From: a virus
IMG/VR virus record: IMGVR_UViG_3300010368_000114
Location: 1 to 23,648 of that record
Length of the DNA: 23,648 bases
Strand: one strand, 5' to 3'
Part shown: positions 1 through 20,400 of the stretch, piece after piece
Layout of the letters: each line of letters starts with the position of its first letter
Numbering within the stretch: the stretch's first letter is position 1
Made by a program: the position numbers and the translations under genes
The notes under the pieces: model-generated
Told to the model about the DNA's origin: nothing
The model's database searches: none
What the model saw: only the letters and a program-made list of their open reading frames with translations

Positions 1-675
1 GTTGATCAGCCAGCGGAAGTCCCTCCTGTTAATAGTTACCCCAATGACCAGTACAGTGTATTCCTGCCATTTGATGACGTTGACGAAAACCTAGAGCAAT
101 ACAGTTGGTATGGCGAAACCTACGTAGGGACAGGCAAACATGACGGGGCTTTTGTATTTGACCATGAGGCAGTTCTATCAGTGCCTGTGCCAACCATTGA
201 CCCTAACGCATACAGTGTGGTTTTCTGGATAAACGCCACGGGTGTGAGATTCATTGGTGAGCTTGACGCCAAGGTAATCTGGAGGGGTGACATCAATAAT
301 CTTTCAGACCCTGTCCCGCATTATATCTTCAATACCAGCAAAAATTTTTACTCAGGGGATGTTTGTTACCACGACAGCTCTTTTCCTTTGCATAGTGAGG
401 TAACTAGTGATTTGCTTGATGAAACTTGGCGTCACGTTGCTATCACCTATGACGGCGCAAGGAAATCTTTTTATCTAGATGGGGTGTTGAGACACACAGC
501 AGTTGCGTCTCCTGCTCCTGTGGCAAATGACACGTTGAACTTTGGCGGCGTCCCTGGGTACTACTACAAGAACGGGTCTCTTGATGACGTGGGTTATTTT
601 TCCCGAACCGCACTTACACAAGAACAGATTTACGAAATCTATAGCAGCCCCGGTCCTTTGGGTACACCCCCCTAA
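1..675 (+). CDS. LamG/concanavalin-like protein, 5' end outside the window
   Basis: The reading frame is open from base 1 to the TAA at 673-675, so the start lies upstream and only about 224 C-terminal residues are seen. The C-terminal half looks like a LamG (laminin G / concanavalin A-like jelly-roll) domain: a strand with VVFWINATG, then ETWRHVAITYDG followed by SFYLDGVL, and the closing GSLDDVGYFSRTALT and EQIYEIY segment typical of the family. Such domains usually bind carbohydrate or protein ligands. It sits just before the tail tube gene, so it could be a virion decoration or adhesion protein. A GTG at 181 could be read as a start, but the protein-like frame continues upstream (residues such as YSVFLPFDDVDENLEQYSW, the usual first LamG strands), so that start is rejected. 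The domain fold is fairly sure; the role is inferred. Confidence 0.75.
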   Translation, partial: VDQPAEVPPVNSYPNDQYSVFLPFDDVDENLEQYSWYGETYVGTGKHDGAFVFDHEAVLSVPVPTIDPNAYSVVFWINATGVRFIGELDAKVIWRGDINNLSDPVPHYIFNTSKNFYSGDVCYHDSSFPLHSEVTSDLLDETWRHVAITYDGARKSFYLDGVLRHTAVASPAPVANDTLNFGGVPGYYYKNGSLDDVGYFSRTALTQEQIYEIYSSPGPLGTPP

Positions 676-2407: not shown

Positions 2408-2411
2408 GTAT

Positions 2412-2852
2412 ATGGCACTTCGCGACCAATTTAAGACGGACAATAAACTCGAAAATGATGGCATCTGGCTGGAATTTGACGAAGTAAGAGTCCGTGTTCG
2501 GCGAGCGGGAAAGTCTAACAAAGCATTTCTAGCTGAAATGGCCAAGCACCAACGTGCCTTGAGTATTGGTGCAATCCGAGGCTCAAAAGCAGACAAACTG
2601 GCGTATGAGGTATTCGGCAAGACGGTAGTTTGCGGATGGGAGACTATGGTTAAGGGCCAATGGGTAGAGGGTATTGACCCATTGGACGCGGGCAAAAAGG
2701 CTTCTAAGACAGGAGACCTTCTCCCAGCAACTAGCGAATTTATTATTGATGTGTTCAACGAGTTGCCGGAGTTCGCGGATTTGGTGATCAGCCAAGCTTC
2801 TAACCATGAGTCATTTCTTGCTGAAGTTAGGGAGGAGAAAGCAAAAAACTAA
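2412..2852 (+). CDS. tail assembly chaperone, zero-frame product (lambda gpG analogue)
   Basis: This 146-residue protein begins four bases after the tail tube stop. Its pattern (DGIWLEFDEVRVRVRRAGKS, then ETVV-like GKTVVCGW, and a helical end) is that of phage tail assembly chaperones, which coat the tape measure and recruit tube protein but are absent from the finished virion. The gene ends GCA AAA AAC TAA, that is, a slippery A AAA AAC directly followed by the stop, so a fraction of ribosomes should shift to -1 and make the longer G-T product. Family assignment rests on sequence pattern plus position and the frameshift, which together make it strong. Only a weak ribosome binding site (AGCAGG) precedes it, so coupling to the upstream stop is likely. 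Confidence 0.85.
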   Translation: MALRDQFKTDNKLENDGIWLEFDEVRVRVRRAGKSNKAFLAEMAKHQRALSIGAIRGSKADKLAYEVFGKTVVCGWETMVKGQWVEGIDPLDAGKKASKTGDLLPATSEFIIDVFNELPEFADLVISQASNHESFLAEVREEKAKN

Positions 2853-2884
2853 GGGAGGCCCTCCGTTATGCGTTGACGGAGGGC
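2829..2884 (+). promoter_or_regulatory. -1 programmed ribosomal frameshift signal in the chaperone gene
   Basis: Three elements are in register. AGGGAGGAG (2829-2837) is a Shine-Dalgarno-like stimulator five bases before the slippery site. A AAA AAC (2843-2849) is a canonical slippery heptamer, correctly phased to the zero frame and immediately followed by the TAA stop. Eight bases later a perfect 9-bp stem, GCCCTCCGT (2858-2866) with ACGGAGGGC (2876-2884), closes a 9-base loop. The same three-part layout is known from E. coli dnaX. A -1 shift joins the 146-residue frame to the open frame ending at 3172. Confidence 0.92.
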
Positions 2885-3172
2885 AAGTTTGAACAAAAGG
2901 CGCTGGAGATGTGCATCCATCAAGGGATGCCTCTTCCCGCTCGAATTGAGAACGCTCCCCAGCCTGCGGAATGTTGTATACTTTTCTGGGCTGCTTTCCA
3001 CGAACTTACCAGCACACGCTCCATCGGATTCTCTATCGGCCCAATCCCTTGGACGGCAGTAAAAGCATGGGCGGATGAGCATGAGCTTGTAGGTAGTGTA
3101 CGCGAAGACCTTTTTTTCTATGTATCCGCGATGGACGAGGAGTTTCTGAATCATCATGTCAAAAGTGACTAA
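2849..3172 (+). CDS. tail assembly chaperone, -1 frameshift extension (lambda gpT analogue)
   Basis: This frame has no ATG and no separate ribosome binding site near its beginning; it is reached by a -1 slip at 2843-2849. The fused product reads through KAK into LREALRYALTEGKFEQKALE and has about 253 residues in total, 107 of them from this extension. The extension carries the pattern usual for gpT-like parts: a helical start, W-AFHEL-TSTRSIGFSIGPIPW in the middle, and a closing helix with AMDEEFLNHH. In lambda the gpGT fusion binds the tape measure through G and the tail tube protein through T, and the G:GT ratio matters for assembly. A TTG at 2873 could in theory start it separately, but that is much less likely. 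Confidence 0.87.
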   Translation, partial: LREALRYALTEGKFEQKALEMCIHQGMPLPARIENAPQPAECCILFWAAFHELTSTRSIGFSIGPIPWTAVKAWADEHELVGSVREDLFFYVSAMDEEFLNHHVKSD

Positions 3173-3659
3173 CCACAAAACCTTTAAGTCACTTGTGCTG
3201 AATCTTAAACGCCGCGCTAAGTGGATGCAAATGAATGCGGATGAGAGGCTAAAGACAGCAGCGACAACTGGTTTACATTCTGTTGCTATGGGTACCCCTG
3301 CTGACACGGGTCTTGCCCGCTCTAGTTGGAAGGTAGGGATAAACCGTATACCCGATATCACGCCTAGAAAGCGTCCTTTCTTTCCTGGGAAAAACTTGGG
3401 GATGGATGAGGGTTCCAATGCTATGGGATCAATCCGAGCAGGCTATAGACGGCTCAAGCGGGTTAAGGCCCACCATACGGTTTATATTCTAAATACCCAG
3501 CCCTACCTCAACAGCCTAAACGACAGCCCAGGGAAAAGCCCTCAGAATCGCCACTTTATTGAGAAGGCTCTAGACAAGGTTAGAAGGGTTCACTATAGCA
3601 GGTCTTTGTTAGGAAAGCCGGTAAAAGCTAATTCTTTTAGGGTGAGAAGCAGTGGCTAG
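3156..3659 (+). CDS. HK97 gp10-like minor tail / tail completion protein
   Basis: This 167-residue basic protein overlaps the end of the chaperone extension by 17 bases. The segment MGTPADTGLARSSWKVGI is the signature of HK97-gp10-like proteins (a small family at the neck/tail junction, where PxDTGxLRxSW is conserved), and a later YILNTQPYLNSLNDSP matches the family's YIxNxxPYxxxLE part. A long basic helix precedes it. In most phages this gene lies between the head and the tail tube genes; here it sits between the chaperone and the tape measure, which is unusual. The ATG at 3156 is chosen because the preceding GAGGAG, though 13 bases away, is the best site and the frame begins here. Confidence 0.65.
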   Translation: MSKVTNHKTFKSLVLNLKRRAKWMQMNADERLKTAATTGLHSVAMGTPADTGLARSSWKVGINRIPDITPRKRPFFPGKNLGMDEGSNAMGSIRAGYRRLKRVKAHHTVYILNTQPYLNSLNDSPGKSPQNRHFIEKALDKVRRVHYSRSLLGKPVKANSFRVRSSG

Positions 3660-6276: not shown

Positions 6277-7247
6277 TGGGTTTCCATGACGTGAGAATGC
6301 CGGAGGAGTTGGAGTATGGCTCAGTCGGCGGACCCTACTTTCAGACCCAAGTTAGTACCACGGATGCCGGGTTTGAGCAGCGGATTAGCCGCTGGAATCA
6401 AGTCCGCCATAAATACACCGTGCAGATGAAACTGACATGGCTTCTGGGTCAGCAGCTACGGGAGTTTTACATTGCCCGCCAAGGGGCCGCTCACAGCTTT
6501 CGCTTTAAGGACTGGATGGACTACCGTACCCCTGCCACGGGTTTTAGTGAAGGTCAAGGGGGAGCAACGATAAGTCCCACGGACCAAGTAGTTGGGGTAG
6601 CAGACGGGGTTACTTCCCAGTTCCAACTAGCAAAGAGATACACAAGCGGCGATACGACGCGGGTGCGTACTATCTCAAAGCCTGTTGAAGGTACTGTGAG
6701 TGTTGCAGTTTCGGGGGTAACCCAACCTCAGAATACTTGGAGCATTGATTACAACACAGGGCTTTTAAGCTTTTCTTCCGCTCCCACCTCCGGTGAGATT
6801 ACTTGGGGTGGGGAGTTTGATGTAGAATGTCGTTTTTCAGAGAGCGCAGACAAGCTTCTTCATCTTCGCTGGGAAAGTCATGGGTCTATCTCTATTAATA
6901 ACTTGGAGCTGGTAGAGGTAATGTCCCAAGACTCTCCGAGCGATGAGGTCTACTATGGGGGTAGTTTTGAGGGAGATATAGATGCCGAACAGCACCTAGG
7001 CTGGTCCAGCCCTATGCTACAGGTGCTAGACCCATATGAAGGGGACGCTATGGTGACTCTGCCAGCGCCAGACTCTAACTCCCCCCACTCAGGTGGCCCT
7101 TTCTTCGTTATTTGCCACGGAGGGCCTCTAAACGTCATTACAGTAAATGACGCATCAACCTCCACTGTGGTTACTATTTCTGCGGGTGAGAGTTACATGT
7201 TTTTCCTTCTGATTACTCCAACGGGGCATCAGTGGTATGCGGTCTAG
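6276..7247 (+). CDS. DUF2460 distal tail protein (GTA gp12-like) with extra C-terminal domain
   Basis: This 323-residue protein starts at an ATG that shares its A with the tape measure stop and has a strong AGGAGG site. Residues about 1-205 match DUF2460, the distal tail protein of the Rhodobacter GTA: the opening FHDVRMPEELEYGSVGGP, RISRWNQVRHKYTV, and the AAHSFRFKDWMDY strand. The DUF2460 protein forms the ring linking the tube to the hub. After the core, residues 226-323 make a small beta domain (YYGGSFEGDID ... GGPFFVICHGG ... GHQWYAV) which is not part of DUF2460 and resembles the N terminus of the next gene product. Location, length and motifs agree, so the identification is firm. Confidence 0.88.
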   Translation: MGFHDVRMPEELEYGSVGGPYFQTQVSTTDAGFEQRISRWNQVRHKYTVQMKLTWLLGQQLREFYIARQGAAHSFRFKDWMDYRTPATGFSEGQGGATISPTDQVVGVADGVTSQFQLAKRYTSGDTTRVRTISKPVEGTVSVAVSGVTQPQNTWSIDYNTGLLSFSSAPTSGEITWGGEFDVECRFSESADKLLHLRWESHGSISINNLELVEVMSQDSPSDEVYYGGSFEGDIDAEQHLGWSSPMLQVLDPYEGDAMVTLPAPDSNSPHSGGPFFVICHGGPLNVITVNDASTSTVVTISAGESYMFFLLITPTGHQWYAV

Positions 7248-9210
7248 GTCCATCTACGGCGGTAGCCTGGAAGTTCAGTTCACTGGCTCCGACATTAAAA
7301 TGGACCCACGAACAAGAGTACTTTCTCTAATAGGGGTATCCTCCAACGGAGACGGGCGGTTAATTTTACCTGTAGCTGCCCCTGCTGGGGGTTTTTTCTA
7401 TATCACGGGCGGAGACATTGACATCCTTGAAGGGGAGACCGTAGTAGGTAACTCATCTGGCGGAGTAATTGCTTTTTCAACCAAAACCGGCTGGGTTCTA
7501 CGAAGCCCTGCGGATAGTTCTACTACTACTCTCACGGGATTAGTACAGGAAAGATCCCTAGTAGTTGAGATTAACCCAACATGGCAACAAAGTTTCTCTT
7601 TTAATTTAATAGAGTATCTAATCTCCATCGACAGCCCTGTCGTATGGCCAGAAAACTCTCATGTTAAGTGGAATATTAAAGTAATTCATCCCGCTAATAA
7701 AGTTTTGATGGCTTTCAGCTTTTCTTATGCCGAAAGCACATTCGATGGGACACCCTATACAGGAAAAGATGACCCTAAAAGCTTTGCTTTTAGGGTAGGA
7801 GAGCCGGGAAGCTACCTTGTTAATGGAATCGAGGTAGAAATCTTTGTCCACCAGACCCCCACTATATTGTTGACCAATTATGGGTATATCCTAGGAGGGG
7901 GCGGTAGTGGCACCGAGGGTGACCCAGTGGGGTACCAAGGGCAAGGATCTAGCGCCATACTGGCAGATCTCCCGATGACTATCGACAATAGGGGCTGGAT
8001 ACTAGCTGGCGGCGGTGGTGGTTCAGTGCCTGTTGGTGACACAGGCATAGCTTGCTCTGGCCAAGGATACTCTAGGGGGGAACCATTTATAGGAGAAAAT
8101 TACCCAGGTAGCGGGAGTACTTTTTTAACAAAACATGGCTTTACACCAAAAGGGACGATAGATTACATCGGCTGGGCTTATATAAAAAATGACATATATA
8201 ATGATAATGCCTATATCCATTGCGCTCACGGGGGTGCATGGGGATGCCCAGGGCAGTCAATAGGAGGGGCTAGAGGGGGCCAGCCGGGGCTTTTAGTGTC
8301 TAAGGCGGAGAATGTAACTTGGCTGGCTGTGGGGGTGGCACAGGGGCTTTGCCGGAACTTAGTGGATAATATATGGGAGCTATACCTAGCTCTCCCAGAG
8401 ACCTATATAGATTCTTCAAAGGAGCCATTGGACCCATCGGCCACCCCTGTTGATCTAGGTGAACTGCTCCCATACTACGGCTATTCCTCTACTACTCCCT
8501 CGCAAGTTATAGTCCATGTCCAGAACGGATGCCTATTCGCCAACCCCAGTGATGTCAGAGTTCTATTTTACGATCCTGATCAATATTTATCCCTTGGTCC
8601 TCCTTTGTATGGCAGAGCATTCAGAGAGCTTAGGGCACCTCAATTAAGTCATACTCCAGTCCTATCTACTGGATCTGCTCATCACCCAATGACAAGCATC
8701 TCTATCAATGTCGATATTGGATGCCGTATCATTGGCCACGGTGCCTCTGCGGTAAGAGAAGGTCCTCATCCGAATGGGGGAGATGCTATTGTAGCCCAAC
8801 ATGACATCACGGTTAATAACAAAGGTAAGATAATTGGGGGAGGAGGAGCCGGGGCTTCCCTTACAGAGGATAGATTATCAGGGTTCCCTGGTTATTCTTA
8901 TACAGGCGGTTCTGGGGCAGGATTGCCCAACAGTACACCCTCCTCCCCCTCTAGTATAAATGGGGGTGAGATTCTACCTTACCTCTCTACTCCTGCCAAT
9001 GGAGAGAAAGACGATGACGGAAACATAATTGGCGGCTCTGGGGGCGAGTATGGCAGAAATGGCAACTACCCAGAGGGAACGCCCCCGCTGCCAGAGGGCG
9101 TTACAGGATGGATAATTCAAGAACCTTCCCTAGCCGGGTGGGCAGTAAAGGAAGAAGGAGGGATCTCTACTATATTAGGTAATGGTCTTTTTATAGGAAG
9201 GAGCGTCTAG
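7237..9210 (+). CDS. glycine-rich tail adhesin-like protein
   Basis: A 657-residue protein starting inside the end of the DUF2460 gene (11-base overlap). Residues about 6-92 repeat the small beta domain found at the end of the DUF2460 protein. Later come three copies of a motif in which an Asn/Gly turn leads into a glycine run: NYGYILGGGGSG (about 214), DNRGWILAGGGGGS (about 249) and NNKGKIIGGGGAGAS (about 526), followed by more Gly-rich segments near the C terminus. Such repeats are known in phage adhesins with polyglycine-II sheets, for example the gp38 adhesin of phage S16. A receptor-binding role at the tail tip is therefore inferred. The gene is inserted between the gp12-like and gp13-like genes, which are adjacent in GTAs. 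No enzyme motif was seen. Confidence 0.65.
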   Translation: MRSRSIYGGSLEVQFTGSDIKMDPRTRVLSLIGVSSNGDGRLILPVAAPAGGFFYITGGDIDILEGETVVGNSSGGVIAFSTKTGWVLRSPADSSTTTLTGLVQERSLVVEINPTWQQSFSFNLIEYLISIDSPVVWPENSHVKWNIKVIHPANKVLMAFSFSYAESTFDGTPYTGKDDPKSFAFRVGEPGSYLVNGIEVEIFVHQTPTILLTNYGYILGGGGSGTEGDPVGYQGQGSSAILADLPMTIDNRGWILAGGGGGSVPVGDTGIACSGQGYSRGEPFIGENYPGSGSTFLTKHGFTPKGTIDYIGWAYIKNDIYNDNAYIHCAHGGAWGCPGQSIGGARGGQPGLLVSKAENVTWLAVGVAQGLCRNLVDNIWELYLALPETYIDSSKEPLDPSATPVDLGELLPYYGYSSTTPSQVIVHVQNGCLFANPSDVRVLFYDPDQYLSLGPPLYGRAFRELRAPQLSHTPVLSTGSAHHPMTSISINVDIGCRIIGHGASAVREGPHPNGGDAIVAQHDITVNNKGKIIGGGGAGASLTEDRLSGFPGYSYTGGSGAGLPNSTPSSPSSINGGEILPYLSTPANGEKDDDGNIIGGSGGEYGRNGNYPEGTPPLPEGVTGWIIQEPSLAGWAVKEEGGISTILGNGLFIGRSV

Positions 9211-10067
9211 TGTTAGATATACCCTCTCAGTTATCCCCATTTCCTGGGGCACAGGTTTTGCGTTTTGTATCCTGCTGGCACCTAAGCCGAAAAGACGGTA
9301 TAGTCATACGCCTTACAAATCACGATGAAAGAATTGTTCTTTATGATGAGGTTTATTACCCTAGGGGTACAATTAACCAAGCGGCCCTAGAGCGTAAAGA
9401 TGGCTACCAAGAATCCAAACGTGAAATGGTAGGTGTCTTGTCTAGCGATCGTATAACCCATGAAGACCTAATCTCTGGGGCTTACAGGGATGCTCATATC
9501 ATTGAGCATCTAGTAGACTGGAAATTTCCCAACGCCGGTGCAATAGAGTCTACTGATTATTGGATAAATAAAGTAGAGATGACTGACCATCAATGGAAAG
9601 CAGAGGTTGGTGGCCTTGCTAGATTTCTCAGCCCTTCTGTTGGGGAGGTCTATGGTAGAAACTGTCGTCATGCTTTGGGTAATGAAATGTGCAAAGTAAA
9701 TATATTATCTTATTCTACACCGGGAGTATCTGTAGAGAGCATCTCAAATGCCCGCACTCAGTTTACCCCTTATCCTCGGCTAGGAGAGGAGTTCATTTAT
9801 GGCAAGTTGATCTGGGAATCTGGCAGCAACCTTTCTACATCTCAAGAAATACTCTTGATAGATACCGAAACCGGGGTTGTTTCTTTGTCTGACCCCGCTC
9901 CGCGTAATATCCAGGAGGGTGATACTTTGTCTGCCTTCCAAGGCTGTGATCGTCTTCGGGTTACTTGCCACGAAAAGTTCAACAACGCAGAAAACTTTGG
10001 GGGCTTTCCTTTTATCCCTAATCGTGACGCCCTTATCGAAGTACCTGGTCTATCTGATGATGAATAG
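9210..10067 (+). CDS. DUF2163 baseplate hub protein (GTA gp13-like, lambda gpL-like)
   Basis: A 285-residue protein beginning at GTG 9210, which shares one base with the upstream TAG and follows an AGGAAGGAG site. The N-terminal part (VLRFVSCWHLSRKDGIVIRL, TNHDERIV, YYPRGTINQAALERKDGY) and the C-terminal part (VTCHEKFNNAENFGGFPFIP) match the DUF2163 / Phage_BR0599 hub family. Four cysteines at about residues 152, 161, 246 and 253 are placed like those that bind a [4Fe-4S] cluster in lambda gpL and, as I recall, a metal cluster in the GTA hub. The protein would form the trimeric hub connecting the distal tail ring to the tip. The metal cluster here is an inference from the conserved cysteines. 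Confidence 0.87.
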   Translation: MLDIPSQLSPFPGAQVLRFVSCWHLSRKDGIVIRLTNHDERIVLYDEVYYPRGTINQAALERKDGYQESKREMVGVLSSDRITHEDLISGAYRDAHIIEHLVDWKFPNAGAIESTDYWINKVEMTDHQWKAEVGGLARFLSPSVGEVYGRNCRHALGNEMCKVNILSYSTPGVSVESISNARTQFTPYPRLGEEFIYGKLIWESGSNLSTSQEILLIDTETGVVSLSDPAPRNIQEGDTLSAFQGCDRLRVTCHEKFNNAENFGGFPFIPNRDALIEVPGLSDDE

Positions 10068-10458
10068 AATAGAGTATACAGCATTATCTCTTAGGGGCAC
10101 TCCTTTTAAGCACCAAGGAAGAGATTTAAAGGAAGGGCTAGATTGTGCGGGTCTGGTAGCTTATGTACTTAAAAAGTCAACTGGATTATCCCCTAGCATT
10201 CCTGATAACTACCCGAAATCTGTGAGAGGATCTTACATTGTTGATGTTCTGGAAGATCACCTAGAAAAAGCAGATGGTCTCCCTATAGGTGGAGTTGTGA
10301 CTTTTTGGATAGATAAACCGGGTATTGTTAGGCATTTAGGTATTATCGTAAGAGATGGTTTTGTACACTCCTCTCCCTCCTATGGCACCATGTTTCAGTC
10401 ATGGACTGATAAATGGGAAAAAAGAATACAGAATGTATATGTATATCGAGGAAAATAA
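10057..10458 (+). CDS. NlpC/P60 family tail peptidase (GTA gp14-like)
   Basis: This 133-residue protein starts at ATG 10057 (or the next ATG, 10060) within the end of the hub gene; the open frame upstream of it is antisense-like filler and is excluded. It has the NlpC/P60 cysteine peptidase triad pattern: Cys30 in EGLDCAGLVAYVL, His93 in VRHLGIIVRD and His104 in GFVHSSPS. Enzymes of this family cut peptide bonds in peptidoglycan. In this position, between the hub and gp15-like genes, the homologues sit in the tail tip and open the cell wall for DNA passage. Length is normal for the compact phage version. Confidence 0.85.
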   Translation: MMNRIEYTALSLRGTPFKHQGRDLKEGLDCAGLVAYVLKKSTGLSPSIPDNYPKSVRGSYIVDVLEDHLEKADGLPIGGVVTFWIDKPGIVRHLGIIVRDGFVHSSPSYGTMFQSWTDKWEKRIQNVYVYRGK

Positions 10459-13400
10459 TGGCTGAGATTGTATTAGCAATTGGCGCTCAGTCTCTTGCCA
10501 CCAGCATGGGGCTAGGGGCAACAGGGGTTTCAATAGCAGGCGCAATAGGTACAGTTGCCGGAGCCGCTATCACCAGTTCGTTGAGACCTGGCCCTCCTAC
10601 GGAATTCGGTCCTAGGTTATCTTCGATGGATATTACAGGCTCCGAGGAAGGTAGCCCTATACCACGTATTTACGGACCAGAGGCTAGAGTAGACCGTACA
10701 CAGCTTTTGTGGAAGGGACCTCTTATAGAAAATAAGAGTACTACCCAAACTGCGTCAAAGAATCGTGCGCGTATTGTTGAATTTAGCTACTACATAGATG
10801 TTGCAATCGCCGTGTGCGAAGGGCCTGTCGAGAACATCTCTAAAATAAGAGCAAATGGAAAAGTAATCTATGATGTTGCCGAACCTCAAGTAGGTTTTGC
10901 CCACTATCAAAGCATAAGCCTTTACTTAGGTACTCCCGGCCAAACCCAAAACTCCCTAATGGAAGCGGCGGAGAATCCAACGGGGGACGGCATCCCAACC
11001 CCCGCATATAGAGGAATTTGCTACTTTGTAATAGAAAAACTTTCTGTGGATCAGTTTGGCAGGCAGCTTCCCACATTTTCAGTTGAGTTGTCCGCTACTA
11101 CTGGGTGGGAGTTTAATTACCCTAGTAGTGGAGACGTGGTATGGGACGAAAGCACAGACCAAGCTTATATCTACGACCCTGATGTTATTCCTGGGGGGTG
11201 GAGCAGACATCGAATGGGGTACCAAGAGGGGGATATTATAGTAGATAGCCTAGCGATGGACCCTCCAGAGGATGCCCCACCTGGAACCAAGGTGCTTGTT
11301 TTTGATGATGCTTTAATCGGAGCAGATCCTATCTGGACTTTCCTTCTATACGACTCACAGTGGGTGGGTCGAAATTGGGGAGAACCAGGTCTGTGGGTAA
11401 AAGAGGAAAATACTCACTATGATGTTTATTTCAAATTAGTGGGGACCAGTTGGCATGTTGACCGACTGGTACCCACATCTACGCCCTTTAGCCCAAACAT
11501 GATGCAAGTGGATAGGATGATAGGCAGTACCCTGCCCATACTGGGGGAGGAGGATATAGGAAAGAGGTATGCCAGTCTCTATGGATACATACCAGTGTCC
11601 TCCTCCAACTGGCCTGGGGCTGTCTTTGTATACGAGGGATTTGGGGTGACTTCCACTGGGGCCTTCTTCCCCCGCATGGGTCAAATTGCCAATAACTTCA
11701 GCGGGGGGTACACAACAGGCGATGCAGTAGCGGAGTTGACAGCGCGCAGCGGGCTGTCCACTGAACAGGTTGATGTTTCCCAAATTACCTCACCCTGTCA
11801 CGGCATTTTGCTTTTGGATAAGGAGCCTATTGGCAATACGCTGACTACTCTTTCCCACGCATACGGCTTTCGTAGTCAAGTTAAATCCGGCAAGCTAGTA
11901 TTCTTCCCTCAAGGCAAAGAGCAAATAGCTTATTTGGGTGAAGAGGATATTGGCACTCAAGGCGGAGAAAAGCCCGGTATTTCTATCACTGATGTATCCG
12001 ATTTAGAGCTTCCTAGGGATGTCAATGTACAGTATATTGACAGGGACGAGGATTACACCGTCGGGTCACAGAGAGAGTTACGGGTCAATGCCGAGGGGGT
12101 AAACTCTATATCCTTAAATCTACCTATCACTATGACAGGTTCGGATGCAAGAAGCGCAGCCTCTCGCTTGTTGTGGGAAACTTGGTCAGAGAGAAGAACT
12201 GTTTCTTTTAGCCTAGGGCCTCGCTGGGTTACACTACAAGAGAATGATGTGGCGGTCTTGGACTGGGCAGGAACTAGGTACCATGTAAGGATTACCCAAA
12301 TAAAACGTGGCTTCAATTACCAGCATGATGTTAAAGGTGTAATCTTTTCTATTGCCCCTGGCGAATCAAGCCCCCCTGTTTACCTCTCCTCCTCCCCACC
12401 GGCGGAAGCAGGGGGCAGCGTCTCTTCTGGAGGAGGAAGAGAAGAGACATATATCCCCCCTGTTGTCACCTACCAACTGATGGACCTACCCCCGCTAGTG
12501 GGCAGCGAATTTGACATAAAGGGTGTATTCTATGCCCAGACTACAGCCACAACATTTAAGGGGGGTACTTACAATTTCGCAAACGACCCCTCTGGTCAAT
12601 ATGAAGAAAGAAAAACCACCAATAGTGTAAAAAGCACTATGGGGACAGCAGACACTGTACTCCCTACTACTCCCTCCCCTAATGTTTGGGATGAAGCCTC
12701 TACCCTAGATATCACGCTAGTCGAAGGGGTTTTATATAACTCAAGTAAACAAATGGTTCTGGCGGGATCAAATATGGCGGTGGTTGGGGTTTTTGACCCT
12801 AACTCGGTGGACTACGGGTTTGAGATTATTGGGTTTGCTAGAGCGGAGAGCCTAGGTGGGACCTCCTATAGGCTAAGTACCCTCATAAGAGGAAGGCGCA
12901 ATACCCAAGATTACGTAGGGCGTCATACTGCCGGGGAGGATTTTATTCTCTTAACCGAGTCACAGATTACTTTTCTCCAACTAGGGGCAACTGATCTTGA
13001 GGTTTTCCGTTATGTAAAATACATCCCAGTAGGGGCTGTTGAGGAAGACGTGGAGGAAAAGGTAATCCGCGTTGTGGGCAACACTACCCGTCCTTTTTCT
13101 CCTTCGGCGGTGAAAGGTAACTATGTTGCCGGAGACTGGCACCTAGGATGGAACTTCCGCAGCAGGGTTCCTCAGACTACATTCAATGGGTTTGATCCTG
13201 TCAACCCAGAGGGGCCTGAGACCTCTTACCTACTCACTTTCTATACAGACAGTAGCTTTGATACAGTAGCGGGTACCCAAATAACATCTGGGACATCCTA
13301 TACCTTTACCTCTGCTGCTCAGACAACACTCTTAGGTTCTCCGCAGACTACTGTTTACGTTTCTGTAGAGCAAAGAATAGCAAGTTCAGATGGCGGAGGG

Positions 13401-13466
13401 TTCTCGGAGCCTCTTAATTATTCTTTGATTTCCTCAAAACAGCAACGATCCACCCTTACAGCATAA
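10458..13466 (+). CDS. tail tip protein, GTA gp15-like / lambda gpJ-like
   Basis: ATG 10458 shares its A with the peptidase stop (TAATG) and has a GAGG site; an in-frame ATG at 10413 would only add residues that overlap the peptidase. The 1002-residue product opens with a Gly/Ala hydrophobic stretch, then the gp15 signature GSEEGSPIPRIYGPEARV and YIDVAIAVCEGPVENISKIRANGK. About residues 512-660 form the Phage-tail_3 part (DLELPRDVNVQYIDRDEDY, SAASRLLWETWSERRTVSF). The end, about 890-1002, looks like a fibronectin-III-type domain. Residues about 217-402 are a Trp- and Tyr-rich insertion in the zone where the GTA protein has a TIM barrel; no TIM-barrel sequence is recognised, and the protein is shorter than GTA gp15. 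It would form the central tip that contacts the cell. Confidence 0.85.
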   Translation: MAEIVLAIGAQSLATSMGLGATGVSIAGAIGTVAGAAITSSLRPGPPTEFGPRLSSMDITGSEEGSPIPRIYGPEARVDRTQLLWKGPLIENKSTTQTASKNRARIVEFSYYIDVAIAVCEGPVENISKIRANGKVIYDVAEPQVGFAHYQSISLYLGTPGQTQNSLMEAAENPTGDGIPTPAYRGICYFVIEKLSVDQFGRQLPTFSVELSATTGWEFNYPSSGDVVWDESTDQAYIYDPDVIPGGWSRHRMGYQEGDIIVDSLAMDPPEDAPPGTKVLVFDDALIGADPIWTFLLYDSQWVGRNWGEPGLWVKEENTHYDVYFKLVGTSWHVDRLVPTSTPFSPNMMQVDRMIGSTLPILGEEDIGKRYASLYGYIPVSSSNWPGAVFVYEGFGVTSTGAFFPRMGQIANNFSGGYTTGDAVAELTARSGLSTEQVDVSQITSPCHGILLLDKEPIGNTLTTLSHAYGFRSQVKSGKLVFFPQGKEQIAYLGEEDIGTQGGEKPGISITDVSDLELPRDVNVQYIDRDEDYTVGSQRELRVNAEGVNSISLNLPITMTGSDARSAASRLLWETWSERRTVSFSLGPRWVTLQENDVAVLDWAGTRYHVRITQIKRGFNYQHDVKGVIFSIAPGESSPPVYLSSSPPAEAGGSVSSGGGREETYIPPVVTYQLMDLPPLVGSEFDIKGVFYAQTTATTFKGGTYNFANDPSGQYEERKTTNSVKSTMGTADTVLPTTPSPNVWDEASTLDITLVEGVLYNSSKQMVLAGSNMAVVGVFDPNSVDYGFEIIGFARAESLGGTSYRLSTLIRGRRNTQDYVGRHTAGEDFILLTESQITFLQLGATDLEVFRYVKYIPVGAVEEDVEEKVIRVVGNTTRPFSPSAVKGNYVAGDWHLGWNFRSRVPQTTFNGFDPVNPEGPETSYLLTFYTDSSFDTVAGTQITSGTSYTFTSAAQTTLLGSPQTTVYVSVEQRIASSDGGGFSEPLNYSLISSKQQRSTLTA

Positions 13467-13476
13467 AGAGGATATA

Positions 13477-14124
13477 ATGTCCACAACTACACTAGGTCTT
13501 CCCTTGATGTTTGAGGGCCAGACAGGAAATGAGATACAATACAACGAGATGATCGTTTGGGTAAGTGCCCTATTACGCACTGGCGCAAAAGACATTCTTA
13601 ACACGCCACCCGGCTCCCCCACCCAAGAAGACACCTACCTAATTGGCCCAGCGCCTACTGGGGATTGGGTAGGAAAGCCTTACTACATTGCTACCTACAT
13701 CGGAACAGCATGGAAGACCATTTCGCCGCTAGAGGGCTGGTCCCTTTGGATCGACGAAGAAGACGAAAGGTACACCTATGACGGCACAAGCTGGGTCGTT
13801 TACGGCGTTAAGAAGGAGTCCGTGTCAGTTACTGGGGTAGTCAGCAAGTTCGCCGGTAAGCATGTAGTCAACCTGACAGACACTCTAACCCTGACAGTAC
13901 CCGACCCTACGACGTACAACGCCAACGAGCAGCAGCGTACAGAGTTAATCCTGCGGGTACCTGGGGCGCATACAGTAACCCTAGCCACCCCCTCTGGTGT
14001 ATTTCGCTCGGACCTAGCTCCCAGCGGAGTCTCCTCCCCTACATTATCAGGACAGTATGTACAGCTTTCGCTGCACACTGATGGAACTGATTGGATTACC
14101 TACGCAAACGGAGGGATCGCTTAA
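13477..14124 (+). CDS. DUF2793 tail protein
   Basis: A 215-residue protein with an AGAGGAT site before ATG 13477. The first 110 residues match DUF2793: LGLPLMFEGQTGNEIQYNE, TPPGSPTQEDTYLIGPAPTG, and SPLEGWSLWIDEED followed by YTYDGTSWVVY. DUF2793 proteins are encoded at the end of GTA-like tail modules, next to gp15, and are thought to be tail-fibre or tip accessory proteins. The remaining 100 residues (TLTVPDPTTYNANEQQRTE and later YVQLSLHTDGTDWITYANGG) form another small beta domain of the kind common in fibre proteins. Function beyond being structural is unknown. Confidence 0.82.
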   Translation: MSTTTLGLPLMFEGQTGNEIQYNEMIVWVSALLRTGAKDILNTPPGSPTQEDTYLIGPAPTGDWVGKPYYIATYIGTAWKTISPLEGWSLWIDEEDERYTYDGTSWVVYGVKKESVSVTGVVSKFAGKHVVNLTDTLTLTVPDPTTYNANEQQRTELILRVPGAHTVTLATPSGVFRSDLAPSGVSSPTLSGQYVQLSLHTDGTDWITYANGGIA

Positions 14125-17100
14125 TGCGCTGCCTACTTCTTTCTCTACTTCTCGCCATTACGGCTCTGGCCGGTCCTGTCCCACTAAAAGTTGACAATCA
14201 GACTGGCGATATCTACCCACCCCCTGGGCAGGTAGTAAACCTTCCAGCCGGGTCCACAATGGGTAACGTGCCAATTGCCACGGGAACTGGAGCCGTCATT
14301 ACAATTAGTGATGATGGCAGCGTTACGGCTACTAATATTAGTACTATTGACTTTGGCTCAGTCCTGGACATTAACATTGCCGGGTCTGAAGCAGATGTAA
14401 CTTTGACAATCTCAGAAGCAAGCGCCGCAACGCCTACCTTGACTGACACTTTTCTTTTGGGAGATGCCAGTGACAGTGGTCTTATCAAAAGGGCTACTCT
14501 ATCCGAGCTTAGGACCCTGATTGATACTGGCGGAAATAGCCTGATAGTTATCAAGGAGGATGGGGGGCTTACCACTACCAAGGCCACCACAATAAACTTA
14601 GGTACTGGTCTGGATTGGACCTGGGCTGACCCAGAAGCTACGCTGGACCTAGATATAAATGAGTATGGCTCGGCTACCCCCACCCTTGTAGATACTATCT
14701 TGATTTACGATGATAGTGCTGCGGCTGTAAAGAAGTCAAGCCTAGTTAATGTACAGGCTCTAATTGACACAAATACCACGTATACTGCTGGGGCCGGACT
14801 TACTCTTGCGGGTACAGTGTTTTCACTCGATCATCTTGGCTTTCAGGATATGACAGACCCCAATGGCGACCGAATTACCTACTGGGACGACACGGCAGGA
14901 AACATGGACTGGCTTTTTGTAGGCTCCACCCTTCAAATCGTAGGGTCTATCCTTAACGTAGCCGCAGACAGCATCGGAAACACAAAACTAGCAGAAATGG
15001 CACAATCCACCCTAAAGGGCAGGCAGTCGGGAGCGGGCACTGGAGACCCACAGGATCTGACAGCGGCTCAGGTGCGCACAATCCTAAACGTGGAAAACGG
15101 GGCGACTTCTGACCAGACAGACAGCGAGATCGAGACGGCCTACAACAACCAAGTAGCGCAGGTGTCTACAGCCGAACGTACTGCTGGTACGGAGACCGCA
15201 ATCCGACGGTTAAGCCCTGCTGATATTCACAGCATGATTGATACCCATGGTGCGGGCGGAGGTGCAGGCGGGTCTGGCACGGTTAACAGAGTCAAGGATG
15301 ATGGGCTACAGGTAGGGGAAGCGGATATCGTCACTATCGATGTGGGGCTTGGGCTAAAGGCCACTGAGTCCCCTGATAAAGAAATAAACCTGGACCTAGA
15401 CATTGCCGAGCTTCCGCTCACTTCTCTTAATACATTGGACTCATTGGTGTTTATGGATGCCTCGGATAGCAACCTACCCAAAAGAAACACATTGTATGCG
15501 TTGAAGCTTATGATTGATACAGATACTGACACAGACACGCAGTTGACAGAAGAGCAGGTTGAGGATTTTATTGGCAATGGCCTCACAGGCAACACAGAGA
15601 CCGGAATTACCGTCACATATCAAGACGCAGATGGCACATTTGATTTCGTAGTTGACTCTATCACAGCGGCTGATCTAGGGGCGGCAAGCGAAAACATTGA
15701 GGCAGACGGGACAATTCGGTGGGAGGACGCGGGGGCGTTGGATTCTAGTGGAAACCTGACAACTACTTATCTTGTAGCGACGGATATAGACACCGAGTCC
15801 GAGTTTGAAACTTTGTTGACTAACGTCACAAACGTCTTTACTAACAACGATATCTCATCTTTTGGGGCCAGCCTTGTTGATGATGCCGACCAAGCATCTG
15901 CCCAGACTACATTGAACGTAGACCCAGCAGGCACGGATAACTCTACAAATGTAACATTGGCAGGCACACCAGACTACGTAACTTTATCCGGCCAAGTGCT
16001 AACAAGGGGACTAGTTGATGTAACTACTGATATTACGGGTGTTGTACCTATCTCTAACCTAGCGACAGGTACCCCAAACGGAAGCAAATTCATCAGAGAT
16101 GATGGCGTTCTTGCTGAAATAGCGGGTGGAGGTGATGCCCTTGTCGCGAACCCACTTTCCCAATTTGCAACGACCACATCTCTTCAATTAGCGGGGGTTA
16201 TCTCAGATGAGACAGGAACTGGTGCTGTTGTACTCAGTACTTCTCCTACTCTGGTTACCCCGGCATTAGGTACACCATCTGCTGCGATTCTGACTAATGC
16301 TACTGGATACCCAGGGGACGAGAGTCTTCTTACTACAGGTACAATTGGTACAGGAACTTGGCAGGGTACTGCTATTGCAGATCCTTATATTGCCAGTGCT
16401 GCAACATGGAATGGAAAGCAAGATCAAGCAAATGTGCTAGATGACATAACAGCAACGGGTACAGCAACAGCAGCAGATCAAATCATAGTATCGACAGGAG
16501 CAGGTACCTTTTCTTTGGAAAGCGGATCAACACTTTTAGCCTCTATCGGTGCTGACCCAGCAGGCACGGATAACTCTACAAATGTAACATTGGCAGGCAC
16601 ACCCGACTATGTAACTCTATCTGGCCAGGTGCTAACAAGGGGGCTAGTTGACGTAACTACCGATATTACGGGCGTTGTGCCTATCGCTAACCTAGGTACA
16701 GGTACTCCAGACGGAACTAAATATTTGAGAGACGATGGGGTATTTGCTAACCCTGGGATAAATCATTTGAGTGATGTAAGTATCTCTGATCCATCAGAGA
16801 ATGACATTCTTGTGTACGACACAGGGAGCTGGGTGAACGTTGAGAGTGTCCCAAGCGCAGACAGAACTCAATTTAAAATACGGAACGAAACAGGTTCTAC
16901 TATTTCGGCAGGTACACCAGTCTACATTTCTGGTTTTTCCGGCGGTCAGGATGTGCCACTCGCAGCCGCTGCCGATGCCTCTTCCGCAATTACAATGCCA
17001 GCGATTGGAGTTCTAAAAGAAGACCTTTCAAACAATTCAACGGGTTACTGTGTTTCTCTTGGCTCAGTTGTAAACATCGACACTTCAACTTTTTCAGCGG

Positions 17101-18671
17101 GTGACACACTTTACGTTGCAAATGGTGGAGGGTTTACAAAAACCAAACCTACTGGAACAAATCTAATCCAGAATATCGGTAAATGCTTAAAAGTAAACAC
17201 CACAACTGGGTCAATAGAAGTTATGGGAGCAGGTAGATCAAATGATGTACCAAACATCACTTCTGCCAATTTCTGGGTAGGTAACGCCTCCTCAGTTGCA
17301 ACGCCTGTGGTAATGAGTGGGGACGCAACTATGACGAATGCTGGTGTTGTTTCCCTTGCTGGTAATTCAGTCAGCGATGCCGAAATTGCATTGGTAACTC
17401 CTGCTCTTGGTACCCCTTCCTCCGTGGTTTTGACTAACGCTACAGGTTACCCCGGCGATGCCAGTCTTGTAACCACAGGTACAATTGGGACAGGAACTTG
17501 GCAGGGTACTGCTATTGCTGACGCCTATATCTCAGGTGCAGCGGGTTGGGATGCCAAACAAGCCCAGGCGGATATCCTTGATGATATTGGTGCGGTAAGC
17601 GCGCCGGGAGCGGCAGATCAGGTCTTGGTTTCGACTGGGGCAGGCGCGTTCGCTTTGGAGTCTGGCGCTACACTTCGCACGAGCCTGGGACTGGCAATCG
17701 GGTTTGATGTCCAACCTTATAACCCAATCGTGGCAGATAGTCAGGACACACTAGGGTATTTCTCATCGACGACTTCCGCCGAACTGGCAGGAGTTATCTC
17801 AGATGAAACAGGTACTGGTGCTGCTGTATTTGGCACTTCGCCTACTCTTGTTACCCCCGCGCTGGGTACCCCATCCTCCGTGGTCTTGACTAACGCGACA
17901 GGGCTACCCGTCGCAGGACTAGCCGCCAGCACATCAGCGGACATGGCAACCGTTTTATCGGATGAGACAGGTACGGGCGCTGCGGTCTTTGGTACCTCCC
18001 CTACCCTTGTCACCCCCGCGCTGGGTACCCCATCTGCTGTGGTCTTGACTAACGCTACAGGTTACCCCGGAGATTCCAGTCTTGTAACTGTCGGGACGGT
18101 TGCCACAGGGACTTGGCAGGGTACACGTGTAGACAGCGACTACCTAGATCTGTCCGTAAAACTACTGGGCCAATGGTACGACATGATGGCAGACGCTGCG
18201 GCGTGGAAGCCCGATAGTACGACAGGCCCAGAGACGGGAGACTCCGACGAGCATACGATTAAGGCGTTCTCTGGTATCGCATCCGAAACTGCCCGTATCA
18301 AGCCAATGATGCCCCGGTCGTGGAACGAGGGCACTGTGAAGGTCACGGTAGCATGGAAGGGCACTACAGGCGCTGCGCCTGGCGATGGGGTGGCTTTCGT
18401 GATCTCTGGGGCATCCGTCGCAAACGATGGCGCTTGGCCACCAACCACCGGCAGCGCAGTCACATTTACTGATACTGTGATTGCAGTTGGGGACATGCAC
18501 TATGTCACCTCTGGGTCGATCACTGTTGCTGGGGCTGCTGCTGGAGTCCTTACTGAGTTTGAACTGTATCGTGACCACGACCATGTCTCAGACACCATGA
18601 CGGAAGACCTCCATCTTTACTCAGTCCTGCTACACTATCAGAAAGCCAGCACAGAGGTGGCAGCACCATGA
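14124..18671 (+). CDS. large repetitive tail fibre-like protein with N-terminal signal peptide
   Basis: ATG 14124 shares one base with the upstream TAA and has GGAGGG eight bases before it, so this start is well supported; the product has 1515 residues. It begins MRCLLLSLLLAITALA-GPVP, a textbook Sec signal peptide, odd for a phage fibre. Three copies of a 65-80-residue unit follow (about 60-135, 140-206, 387-465), each ending near DASDS-KR-TL-LIDT. Then come a DTDTDTDTQLT linker, paired repeats at about 600-645 and 811-856, four copies of VTPALGTPS-VLTNATG, and at about 915-1035 a compact beta domain (IRNETGSTISAGTPVYISG, AIGVLKEDLS). The units are common in aquatic phage fibres. The C-terminal 170 residues are non-repetitive and could be the receptor-binding end. 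Confidence 0.75.
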   Translation: MRCLLLSLLLAITALAGPVPLKVDNQTGDIYPPPGQVVNLPAGSTMGNVPIATGTGAVITISDDGSVTATNISTIDFGSVLDINIAGSEADVTLTISEASAATPTLTDTFLLGDASDSGLIKRATLSELRTLIDTGGNSLIVIKEDGGLTTTKATTINLGTGLDWTWADPEATLDLDINEYGSATPTLVDTILIYDDSAAAVKKSSLVNVQALIDTNTTYTAGAGLTLAGTVFSLDHLGFQDMTDPNGDRITYWDDTAGNMDWLFVGSTLQIVGSILNVAADSIGNTKLAEMAQSTLKGRQSGAGTGDPQDLTAAQVRTILNVENGATSDQTDSEIETAYNNQVAQVSTAERTAGTETAIRRLSPADIHSMIDTHGAGGGAGGSGTVNRVKDDGLQVGEADIVTIDVGLGLKATESPDKEINLDLDIAELPLTSLNTLDSLVFMDASDSNLPKRNTLYALKLMIDTDTDTDTQLTEEQVEDFIGNGLTGNTETGITVTYQDADGTFDFVVDSITAADLGAASENIEADGTIRWEDAGALDSSGNLTTTYLVATDIDTESEFETLLTNVTNVFTNNDISSFGASLVDDADQASAQTTLNVDPAGTDNSTNVTLAGTPDYVTLSGQVLTRGLVDVTTDITGVVPISNLATGTPNGSKFIRDDGVLAEIAGGGDALVANPLSQFATTTSLQLAGVISDETGTGAVVLSTSPTLVTPALGTPSAAILTNATGYPGDESLLTTGTIGTGTWQGTAIADPYIASAATWNGKQDQANVLDDITATGTATAADQIIVSTGAGTFSLESGSTLLASIGADPAGTDNSTNVTLAGTPDYVTLSGQVLTRGLVDVTTDITGVVPIANLGTGTPDGTKYLRDDGVFANPGINHLSDVSISDPSENDILVYDTGSWVNVESVPSADRTQFKIRNETGSTISAGTPVYISGFSGGQDVPLAAAADASSAITMPAIGVLKEDLSNNSTGYCVSLGSVVNIDTSTFSAGDTLYVANGGGFTKTKPTGTNLIQNIGKCLKVNTTTGSIEVMGAGRSNDVPNITSANFWVGNASSVATPVVMSGDATMTNAGVVSLAGNSVSDAEIALVTPALGTPSSVVLTNATGYPGDASLVTTGTIGTGTWQGTAIADAYISGAAGWDAKQAQADILDDIGAVSAPGAADQVLVSTGAGAFALESGATLRTSLGLAIGFDVQPYNPIVADSQDTLGYFSSTTSAELAGVISDETGTGAAVFGTSPTLVTPALGTPSSVVLTNATGLPVAGLAASTSADMATVLSDETGTGAAVFGTSPTLVTPALGTPSAVVLTNATGYPGDSSLVTVGTVATGTWQGTRVDSDYLDLSVKLLGQWYDMMADAAAWKPDSTTGPETGDSDEHTIKAFSGIASETARIKPMMPRSWNEGTVKVTVAWKGTTGAAPGDGVAFVISGASVANDGAWPPTTGSAVTFTDTVIAVGDMHYVTSGSITVAGAAAGVLTEFELYRDHDHVSDTMTEDLHLYSVLLHYQKASTEVAAP
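15283..15522 (+). repeat. third copy of the fibre N-terminal ~75-residue unit
   Basis: This stretch encodes the third copy of a unit whose first two copies lie at about 14301-14528 and 14547-14741. All three share the order: an [I/V]xxDG start, TI-x-[F/L/V]-G, an acidic Leu/Asp strand, TxxLDxxLxxDASDS-like, K-R-x-TL, and LIDT or MIDT at the end. The copies are diverged (roughly a third to a half identical by eye), so the duplication is old. They probably form successive beta modules of a trimeric shaft. Confidence 0.6.
15921..16056 (+). repeat. fibre repeat A, copy 1
   Basis: About 136 bases that recur at 16554-16689, 633 bases later in the same frame. The first 50 or so bases are identical; after that nearly all differences fall on third codon positions, so the encoded protein (DPAGTDNSTNVTLAGTPDYV and beyond) is almost unchanged. 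This suggests duplication inside the gene with later silent drift, or partial gene conversion. Confidence 0.85.
16335..16378 (+). repeat. fibre repeat B, conserved core
   Basis: A 44-base stretch that recurs at 17475-17518 with a single mismatch; it encodes TGTIGTGTWQGTAIA. A more diverged third copy, coding TVGTVATGTWQGT, lies near 18088-18123. Each follows a VLTNATGYPG segment, so the core is part of a larger unit. Confidence 0.8.
16554..16689 (+). repeat. fibre repeat A, copy 2
   Basis: Second copy of the 15921-16056 unit in the same reading frame. The protein is nearly identical (one visible change near the end, SNL to ANL), while third codon positions differ. It is followed by GTGTPDGTKYLRDDGVFANP, which parallels TGTPNGSKFIRDDGVLAEI after copy 1, so the protein-level repeat is longer than the DNA-level repeat. 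Confidence 0.85.
17475..17518 (+). repeat. fibre repeat B, second copy
   Basis: Second copy of the 16335-16378 core, 1140 bases downstream and in frame, with one mismatch. It belongs to a longer block (about 17395-17590) that parallels 16249-16470 at protein level, including LTNATGYPGD and a VLDDI / ILDDI end. Confidence 0.8.
17792..18063 (+). repeat. tandem fibre repeat C, 53-residue period
   Basis: Two adjacent copies of a unit that starts at SDETGTGA and runs through FGTSPTLVTPALGTPS and VVLTNATG. The spacing is 159 bases (for example the PALGTPS codons after 17850 and after 18009), exactly 53 codons. A related single copy lies at about 16200-16310. Differences between copies are mainly silent. 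Confidence 0.8.
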
Positions 18672-19828
18672 AGTATATAATACCATGCCTACTTCTAGTA
18701 TTGCAACTATCGGCAGTAGATGCTTGGCCTAGCTGGGCAAATGACTGGGGCTTGCGTATTGGAATCACTACCGACTCCTCGAAGATTGACAGCGCAGCTA
18801 CAATACCTGCATTATTTGACCTGTCTCAGATCGGTTCAGGCGATGCTTTCTGGACTGATGTAGATGCAGACGGAGACGACATTGTAATGGGACTCGGAGG
18901 TACTTCCGTTGACACCAGAGTGGCTTGCCACGTTCTTGATTTCGACAAGACCGCTAAGACTGGATACGTGGTATATGCAGGCAGTGATAATAGTACCTCT
19001 ACGAATGTGGTATATTATATCTACGCCAGCAACGCAACTGCAACTCCACCCGCGATAGATGCAGCATATGGGCAAGAGGCTGTGTATTCAGCAGCAGGGT
19101 GCGTAGTCGCGCACCATTTTACAGGGGCATCAGTAACGGATCTCGACGATTACACCGCGTCAGACGTAGACTTTGAGACGGATAAAAACTTCCCTCTTTA
19201 CAACATAGTTGGTAAGCACGGATATGCTTACGAAAATAGCGTGGGCAACGAACACTTGAAATCTGAACCGGATCCTACTCCTGCTCTGCCGGTGATTAGT
19301 AGTGATGTGTGCCTTATGATGTGGGTCTACCCTAGTGATGTAGTCGGCAATGAGCAAATTATGGGATTTCAGTACGATTACTCAAATGGCCCATCTATGC
19401 GCCTGACAACAAATAAACCTCAGACTCGTACGGAGAATACAGTGTTAACCTCTGCAAATCCGATATCAATAAACACTTGGTACCAATTTGCTGTCACTTG
19501 GGACTCCAGCAACTTGAAACTTTACGTGGATGGAACTGAAGAAGCGACGGTAGCCAAATCAGGAGCAATGACGCCTACAACTAACCCCACATATAAACTG
19601 CTCCAAATTGGGTCGTTTGCTACAGGCTCTGAGCATTATCACGGCAGAGTGGACACGATGATGATCTTTAATGTCAGCGGAACGCCGACTGCTGGTTTTG
19701 TGTCCACGGTATATAATAACCAAGCAAATAACAATTTCTATAGCAATGTTTCAACGAGCGAGACTCAACCTGTAATAGGAGCAGGCGGCGCTCAAGATGG
19801 TTTTCTCTCCCCTGTCACCTTCGACTAA
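18668..19828 (+). CDS. DUF2341 plus LamG protein with signal peptide
   Basis: A 386-residue protein that starts at ATG 18668 within the fibre stop (ATGA overlap), with AGAGG about ten bases before it, so it is translated with the fibre. Residues 1-19 (MKYIIPCLLLVLQLSAVDA) form a Sec signal peptide with an AxA-like cleavage site before WPSW. About 28-115 matches DUF2341 (IGITTDSSKIDS, FWTDVDADGDDIVM, RVACHVLDFDKT, GYVVYAG), a domain of secreted and surface proteins. About 145-350 is a LamG jelly roll (VVAHHF, CLMMWVYPS, TWYQFAVTWDSSNLKLYVDG, HGRVDTMMIFNVS). It resembles the fold of the product at 1-675. A ligand-binding or adhesion role is inferred; whether it is in the virion or on the infected cell is open. 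Confidence 0.75.
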   Translation: MKYIIPCLLLVLQLSAVDAWPSWANDWGLRIGITTDSSKIDSAATIPALFDLSQIGSGDAFWTDVDADGDDIVMGLGGTSVDTRVACHVLDFDKTAKTGYVVYAGSDNSTSTNVVYYIYASNATATPPAIDAAYGQEAVYSAAGCVVAHHFTGASVTDLDDYTASDVDFETDKNFPLYNIVGKHGYAYENSVGNEHLKSEPDPTPALPVISSDVCLMMWVYPSDVVGNEQIMGFQYDYSNGPSMRLTTNKPQTRTENTVLTSANPISINTWYQFAVTWDSSNLKLYVDGTEEATVAKSGAMTPTTNPTYKLLQIGSFATGSEHYHGRVDTMMIFNVSGTPTAGFVSTVYNNQANNNFYSNVSTSETQPVIGAGGAQDGFLSPVTFD

Positions 19829-19851
19829 CCAAAAACACACGAGGTTCCCCG

Positions 19852-20400
19852 ATGATCCGCGCAATCGCAATCGCAATTCTCATTACACTTTCTTCCGCCG
19901 CTGAGTCCCCTTCCGAATTCGTGAATAGGGCAATTTCTCCTTATGTTATTTCTGTGATCTCACCAGTTCAGGAAGGGGATCGATCAGACCCAGGCCATAT
20001 CTTCCAGGTGCAGACTATAGTCTCCAAGGACGCAGAGGGTAACGCGAGAAAGGTTACGCAAAAGTTTACCCCAGATGGTGCAGACAGTTTTGTAATGATC
20101 AATGGCTTGATCAAAAACTTTGACCCGGCAGGGCAACCGGAACTGAGCGTCCTATCTATTGGTTCTGGCCTGATGAAGAATTGGGAAGGCACTGTACCTT
20201 CCCTTGAGCTAGGGGAAGGAGAGATCTACTACCCCTTTGGCCCTACTCTGGTCCTTCAAAGTTCTATCTTACTCCGAGGCGAAAAGATACAGGAGTTCAA
20301 CCTGCCGGTGATGAAATTAACATTTACCGACGGGACTCAAATTGTCGCGGCGCTTTGGATGGAGTACGGTAAACTCTACTGGCACGAAGCTGCCCAGTAG
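19852..20400 (+). CDS. secreted protein of unknown function
   Basis: This 182-residue protein is not recognised. ATG 19852 has CGAGG seven bases before it, and a 23-base gap separates it from the DUF2341/LamG gene. It opens MIRAIAIAILITLSSAA, a short basic-then-hydrophobic stretch that looks like a signal peptide cut after SAA. The rest is mixed beta: HIFQVQTIVSKDAEG, VTQKFTPDGADSFVMINGLI, a Gly/Leu stretch, VMKLTFTDGTQIVAALWMEY and a YWHEAAQ end. There is no Cys in the mature part. It is the last gene of the tail operon, a place where fibre accessory or lysis genes often lie, but no lysozyme, holin or spanin pattern is seen. Confidence 0.6.
   Translation: MIRAIAIAILITLSSAAESPSEFVNRAISPYVISVISPVQEGDRSDPGHIFQVQTIVSKDAEGNARKVTQKFTPDGADSFVMINGLIKNFDPAGQPELSVLSIGSGLMKNWEGTVPSLELGEGEIYYPFGPTLVLQSSILLRGEKIQEFNLPVMKLTFTDGTQIVAALWMEYGKLYWHEAAQ

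Follow-up and report, generated by a model that had tools for sequence, protein, structure and literature searches.

The late tail operon of a phage closes with three consecutive genes that each begin with the features of a Sec signal peptide, and their products are probably exported from the cytoplasm of the infected cell. The window analysed (23,648 bases) is an entire IMG/VR virus record, and the three genes, all on the plus strand, encode a fibre-like protein of 1515 aa (14124..18671) with SDETGTGAxVFxTSPTLVTPALGTPS repeats and a diversifying tip, a LamG (concanavalin A-like lectin fold) protein of 386 aa (18668..19828) and an orphan protein of 182 aa (19852..20400). The predicted signal peptides occupy 14124..14171, 18668..18724 and 19852..19899, also on the plus strand, with cleavage predicted at MRCLLLSLLLAITALA^GP, MKYIIPCLLLVLQLSAVDA^WP and MIRAIAIAILITLSSA^AE, respectively. 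All three have a positively charged start, an apolar core and the small residues at -3 and -1 expected for Sec and SPase I, and in each protein the most hydrophobic 19-residue stretch is at the N-terminus. The ATG of the fibre gene (14124) overlaps the stop codon of the preceding DUF2793 gene (TAATG) and has GGAGG upstream, the ATG of the LamG gene (18668) overlaps the fibre stop codon (ATGA) and has AGGTGG upstream, and the ATG of the 182-aa gene (19852) is preceded by GAGG. An automatic start scorer picked the same three starts. Lipoprotein (SPase II) signals were considered and rejected, as there is no lipobox, all three signals score as type I and the N-terminal Cys residues lie inside the core. 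The fibre and LamG signals have an 11-base word in common (TGCCTACTTCT), possibly by chance, and the signal of the 182-aa protein is unrelated.

Signals were evaluated with our own rule-based scorer, which considers n-region charge, the apolar core and small residues at -3/-1. Its rule was loosened once, after it had missed the LamG protein and Bla, and it then found the E. coli signal peptides tried (OmpA 5.58, PhoA 4.78, Bla 4.97, DsbA 5.71). The fibre, LamG and 182-aa proteins score 5.99, 5.46 and 5.50, within range of these known signals, and when the residues of their N-termini were shuffled 20,000 times the real score was reached in 13, 25 and 170 shuffles, respectively. In 158 related viral contigs there are 1,214 genes that encode 150 aa or more, of which 19 score 4.5 or higher and 4 score 5.4 or higher, and three in a row are therefore not attributable to chance; the cubed frequency at 5.4 is about 4e-8, a value that presupposes independence of adjacent genes. 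In the phage itself, neither the window nor a sibling contig has a further called gene that scores as signal-bearing; the genes without a signal include those of a second LamG protein and a GP38-type adhesin.

The sibling contig, IMGVR_UViG_3300010316_000031 (29,257 bases), is 99.87% identical to positions 413-18555 of the window and extends the genome leftward, ending before the starts of the LamG and 182-aa genes. None of the 24 differences between the two falls within the fibre signal. It is very improbable that the triplet is an artefact of chance, wrong starts or assembly error: the window is a metagenomic contig and there are only two near-identical records of this phage, but the genes have ribosome-binding sites and overlaps, the cubed base rate is minute and the sibling contig has exactly the same fibre start. 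Chance and wrong starts, in particular, were rejected on the scores, the shuffles and this identity. The original prediction, that three consecutive genes of the tail operon each have a Sec signal peptide and a good ribosome binding site, is thus confirmed by starts, scores and shuffles.

The operon that ends with these genes is of siphovirus type and has, in order, genes for a tail tube, a tape measure, a GP38-type tail adhesin (657 aa, 7237..9210, plus strand, PF05268 8.2e-11), a minor tail protein, an NlpC/P60-type protein, a GTA-like tail tip, a DUF2793 protein (215 aa, 13477..14124, plus strand, PF10983 3.6e-16) and the three signal-bearing proteins, with a convergent replication module to its 3′-side. 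The adhesin and the DUF2793 protein have no signal peptide. The second LamG-bearing protein (341 aa), also without a signal, has its 3′-part at 1..675 on the plus strand of the window and its start in the sibling contig (10352-11200), where the gene lies between the head-completion and tail-tube genes; its LamG domain is fused C-terminally. A recent duplication of the two LamG proteins was rejected, as they match over only 39 residues (E 6e-4). Left of the window, the sibling contig (2360-4336) has a large terminase gene with an intein-like insertion, recognised by eye only, that spans roughly HCLPPGSRVLMSDG to WMSGNS. The window primase is 42% identical to primases of Mesyanzhinovviridae, the tail tip is closer to those of GTA-like phages (25-28%), and none of the primase relatives has the gene order of the window, with a similar operon end in 0 of 85 loci. 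There is no integrase in the available phage sequence.

This position in the operon could mean that the three proteins are normal virion components whose N-termini serve assembly or membrane contact rather than export, and the cleavage is predicted from sequence only. We consider this improbable, given three charged starts with good cleavage sites and nothing similar in the other tail proteins of the phage.

Neither the fibre nor the 182-aa protein matched a Pfam family above cutoff. The LamG protein scored 68.1 bits against PF13385, for which the cut-off is 27.6 (1.2e-18, residues 211-337). It had also been labelled a DUF2341 protein, a label that Pfam does not support, with no DUF2341 match listed at E up to 0.1, a search in which the HMMER filters drop weak matches. 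No relatives of the LamG protein were found in the phage collection or the viral-contig scan. AlphaFold2 models made without an alignment are not interpretable for the LamG and 182-aa proteins (mean pLDDT 37.5 and 32.2). The fibre has the sequence attributes of a tail fibre, namely fibre repeats and a position after the tail-tip genes, and resembles other fibres only in the repeats, one internal domain and the tip. Its homologues by domain in sequenced phages, where the matching genes were read, start without a signal. The combination of fibre, LamG and 182-aa genes, for which a survey of related phages had been suggested, was found in no other phage in the scans made.

The last fifth of the fibre gene (17943-18515) contains 16 of the 24 differences between window and sibling. 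Those in the fibre tip (18347-18515) are all synonymous, a pattern as might be left after exchange with a diverged allele. Tip divergence is one of the points in favour of the main rival to a function away from the virion, namely that the fibre and LamG protein fold in the periplasm and join the tail only at lysis, perhaps via the DUF2793 protein. The best argument for such late decoration is the tail-operon position with the stop-start overlap with the DUF2793 gene, and the repeats and tip are also common to annotated tail fibres. We regard it as unlikely nonetheless, as the phage already has an adhesin of the GP38 type without a signal. To our knowledge, no tailed phage has been shown to assemble its fibres by attaching exported fibres after lysis.

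Signals are rare among the phage fibres that have the same repeat as the window fibre. A repeat-motif scan of viral contigs gave 75 complete fibre genes, of which about two are signal-bearing: one (L109) has a clear signal as called and the other (L118) has a signal (5.29) if its start is the ATG 12 codons downstream. The gene that follows in L118 (821 aa, with Ig and chitobiase-C-like domains) is also signal-bearing. Two viral contigs, L405 (3679-5954) and L118 (7005-12363), have two consecutive signal-bearing genes each, fibre-like in part, and these pairs are the closest parallels found to the triplet. Four other viral contigs (L097 10268-11725, L106 9901-10647, L111 10892-12367 and L136 13902-15380) have a common signal-bearing protein of about 490 aa, with no Pfam family, encoded downstream of a signal-less fibre gene. 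All such counts are conditional on the simple gene caller and on our own scorer.

In GTDB genomes, 23 of 57 complete repeat-bearing genes score as signal-bearing. Some encode host proteins, in Flavobacteriia, Patescibacteria and similar groups, and other signal-bearing fibre-like genes are located in apparent prophage tail or late operons, as in Bradyrhizobium (L202), Sphingomonas (L211), Rhizobium lusitanum (L230), Paraburkholderia (L231 and L245), Cupriavidus (L240), Pararobbsia (L181) and a Verrucomicrobia MAG (L250). The repeat is present in 1 of 385 genomes of the class of the Sphingomonas genome and in 3 of 300 of the order of the Cupriavidus genome; Verrucomicrobia were rejected as a special home of such fibres, with the repeat in the seed genome only (1 of 388). 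A planctomycete MAG (L191, 3447-8058) has a chromosomal set of three genes, with no phage genes around, that encode a fibre-repeat protein, whose apparent signal was read by eye and is missed by our scorer, an Ig-like protein whose C-terminus is a hydrophobic tail and an apparently barrel-like protein of 232 aa. This operon is possibly a host-owned fibre display system.

Such loci raise the alternative that the three window genes were captured from bacterial secreted fibre-type adhesins and function as a moron for the host or lysogen, with cell adhesion as one example. The repeat does occur in secreted proteins of Flavobacteriia, Patescibacteria and the planctomycete, in the last of these together with two other apparently secreted proteins, and LamG domains are common in bacterial surface proteins, which also favours capture. 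The three genes, however, have the base composition of the rest of the window and no excess of terminators or promoters around them, the available sequence lacks an integrase, and the genomes and contigs scanned gave no host homologue for either the LamG or the 182-aa protein; for the latter there are no relatives in the viral contigs or in 294 genomes from the phylum to which the planctomycete MAG belongs. Host capture is, on balance, quite unlikely.

A family of fibre-like genes is also informative on export. Members include gp19 of Burkholderia phage BcepC6B, annotated as a tail fibre protein, orf035 of Xanthomonas phage PBR31 and genes in Paraburkholderia and Cupriavidus, with a common layout of a signal peptide followed by a mature start like ATLNPIQLLNPAGSTSGQAIVSTG. 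A profile of the family N-termini found 60 IMG/VR loci, of which 56 were read; the profile included the signal, and the sample leans accordingly to signal-bearing members, with the recruiting patterns lying in the mature start. Signal scores of at least 4.0 were obtained for 52 of the 56 loci and the other four score 3.67-3.93. Among 48 distinct N-termini, pairwise identity is 28% in the core and 75% in the mature start, polar residues make up 0.2% of the core and 22% of the mature start, and pN/pS is 0.61 for the signal and 0.29 for the mature start. By these measures the predicted signal evolves like a working signal peptide, free to change and held apolar, and its retention in nearly every member despite divergence is the pattern that selection for export predicts. 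Phages therefore do appear to carry fibre-like genes with an export signal under selection. The genes often follow a signal-less spike or fibre gene of 600-850 aa, or sit among lysis-type genes, the neighbours being labelled from annotation in PBR31 and BcepC6B and by eye elsewhere, and the L405 locus has two signal-bearing genes in a row. The PBR31 paper mentions a signal peptide only for the gp40 esterase. Two entries of the phage collection, OK094664.1 (Shewanella phage) and OP650936.1 (Hujiaoplasma phage), are both 47,902 long, do not differ in their match statistics and may be one sequence under two host names. The mature start of the family, ATLNPIQLLNPAGSTSGQAI, is absent from the window fibre, which has GPVPLKVDNQTGDIYPPPGQ, and as the two are not homologous beyond generic repeats, the family supports export of the window fibre by analogy only.

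The premise that virion fibres normally lack export signals consequently holds for the domain-level homologues of the window fibre, although exceptions recur in unrelated phages and prophages. Homologues without the hydrophobic N-terminus had been proposed as evidence against export, and here the outcome is split: the fibre homologues lack it, while other fibre-like genes have it and in one family it is conserved.

The explanation that we tentatively prefer, at a little under an even chance, is that the three genes encode late, Sec-exported fibre- and lectin-like proteins whose place of action would be outside the cytoplasm and whose role may be that of receptor decoys or adhesins. After passage through SecYEG late in infection and removal of the signal by signal peptidase I, the proteins would take their mature form outside the cytoplasm and would therefore not be available for ordinary cytoplasmic tail assembly. 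In the periplasm, envelope or lysate they might bind glycans or receptors, which is the least certain step, and the bound proteins could then limit re-adsorption or superinfection as decoys or masks, or else be adhesins, while attachment of the virion would be left to cytoplasmic proteins, for example the GP38-type adhesin. One such hypothesis, as first proposed, is a system for adhesion or exclusion at the surface of the infected cell; no outer-membrane export route or anchor was recognised for the three proteins, and this counts against the preferred explanation, as do the tail-operon position, which argues for a virion role, the signal-less domain homologues in sequenced phages and the limited homology of the gp19/orf035 family. 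In its favour are the strong signals, their well-placed starts, the chance estimate and their restriction to these three genes within the genome, a candidate cytoplasmic receptor-binding protein without a signal, the GP38-type adhesin, and, by analogy, the gp19/orf035 family, the prophage late-operon genes, the L118 and L405 pairs, Lom and PblA/PblB. Sequence alone does not separate a decoy or adhesin role from post-lysis assembly or host capture.

It is conceivable, although we think it rather unlikely, that tailed phages of several lineages encode a distinct class of late Sec-exported fibre and lectin proteins that work outside the virion, represented here by a three-protein set. Members would bind receptors, whether of the infected cell, debris or neighbours, so preventing re-adsorption, excluding rivals or aggregating cells. 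Fibre-repeat proteins are, as a matter of routine, annotated as tail fibres of the virion; should a recurrent and conserved subset be Sec-exported, these annotations, and the host-range predictions based on them, would be wrong for it, and phages would have an activity outside the cell that has gone unrecognised. Export can be tested directly on isolated phages, for example BcepC6B, whose gp19 has a clear signal peptide and is named a tail fibre protein.

Phage-made surface proteins are already known, and we found no description of Sec-exported tail fibres as a class in the open-access literature. The fibres of the Synechococcus cyanophage S-PRM1 and the Flavobacterium immuto phages are repeat-type tail fibres that have the repeats and one domain in common with the window fibre but, where their starts were read, no signal peptide. 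The secreted fibre-repeat proteins of Flavobacterium, Patescibacteria and the planctomycete are like the window fibre in having a SPTLVTPALGTPS-type repeat after a signal peptide, and the planctomycete locus also has three consecutive genes of secreted type, but it is chromosomal and its partner proteins are not LamG proteins. The BcepC6B gp19/PBR31 orf035 family is similarly fibre-like, with a Sec signal and a location in the late region by spike or fibre and lysis genes, whereas its members are about 250-550 aa, have the conserved mature start ATLNPIQLLNPAGST and are usually encoded by a single gene. PblA and PblB are phage tail-type proteins that, once released by lysis, act as adhesins on the bacterial surface; for pneumococcal PblB, a signal peptide is predicted (PMC4508584, PMC9917116). 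They differ from the window set in having a Gram-positive host, and the S. mitis proteins reach the surface by lysis-type release, with no shown Sec route. In lambda, the lom gene is located between those for the tail spike and the tail fibre, and its product is a signal-bearing protein of the outer membrane (PMC12309495). Lom is like the window proteins in being signal-bearing and encoded among tail genes, but is a small beta-barrel, neither fibre nor lectin.
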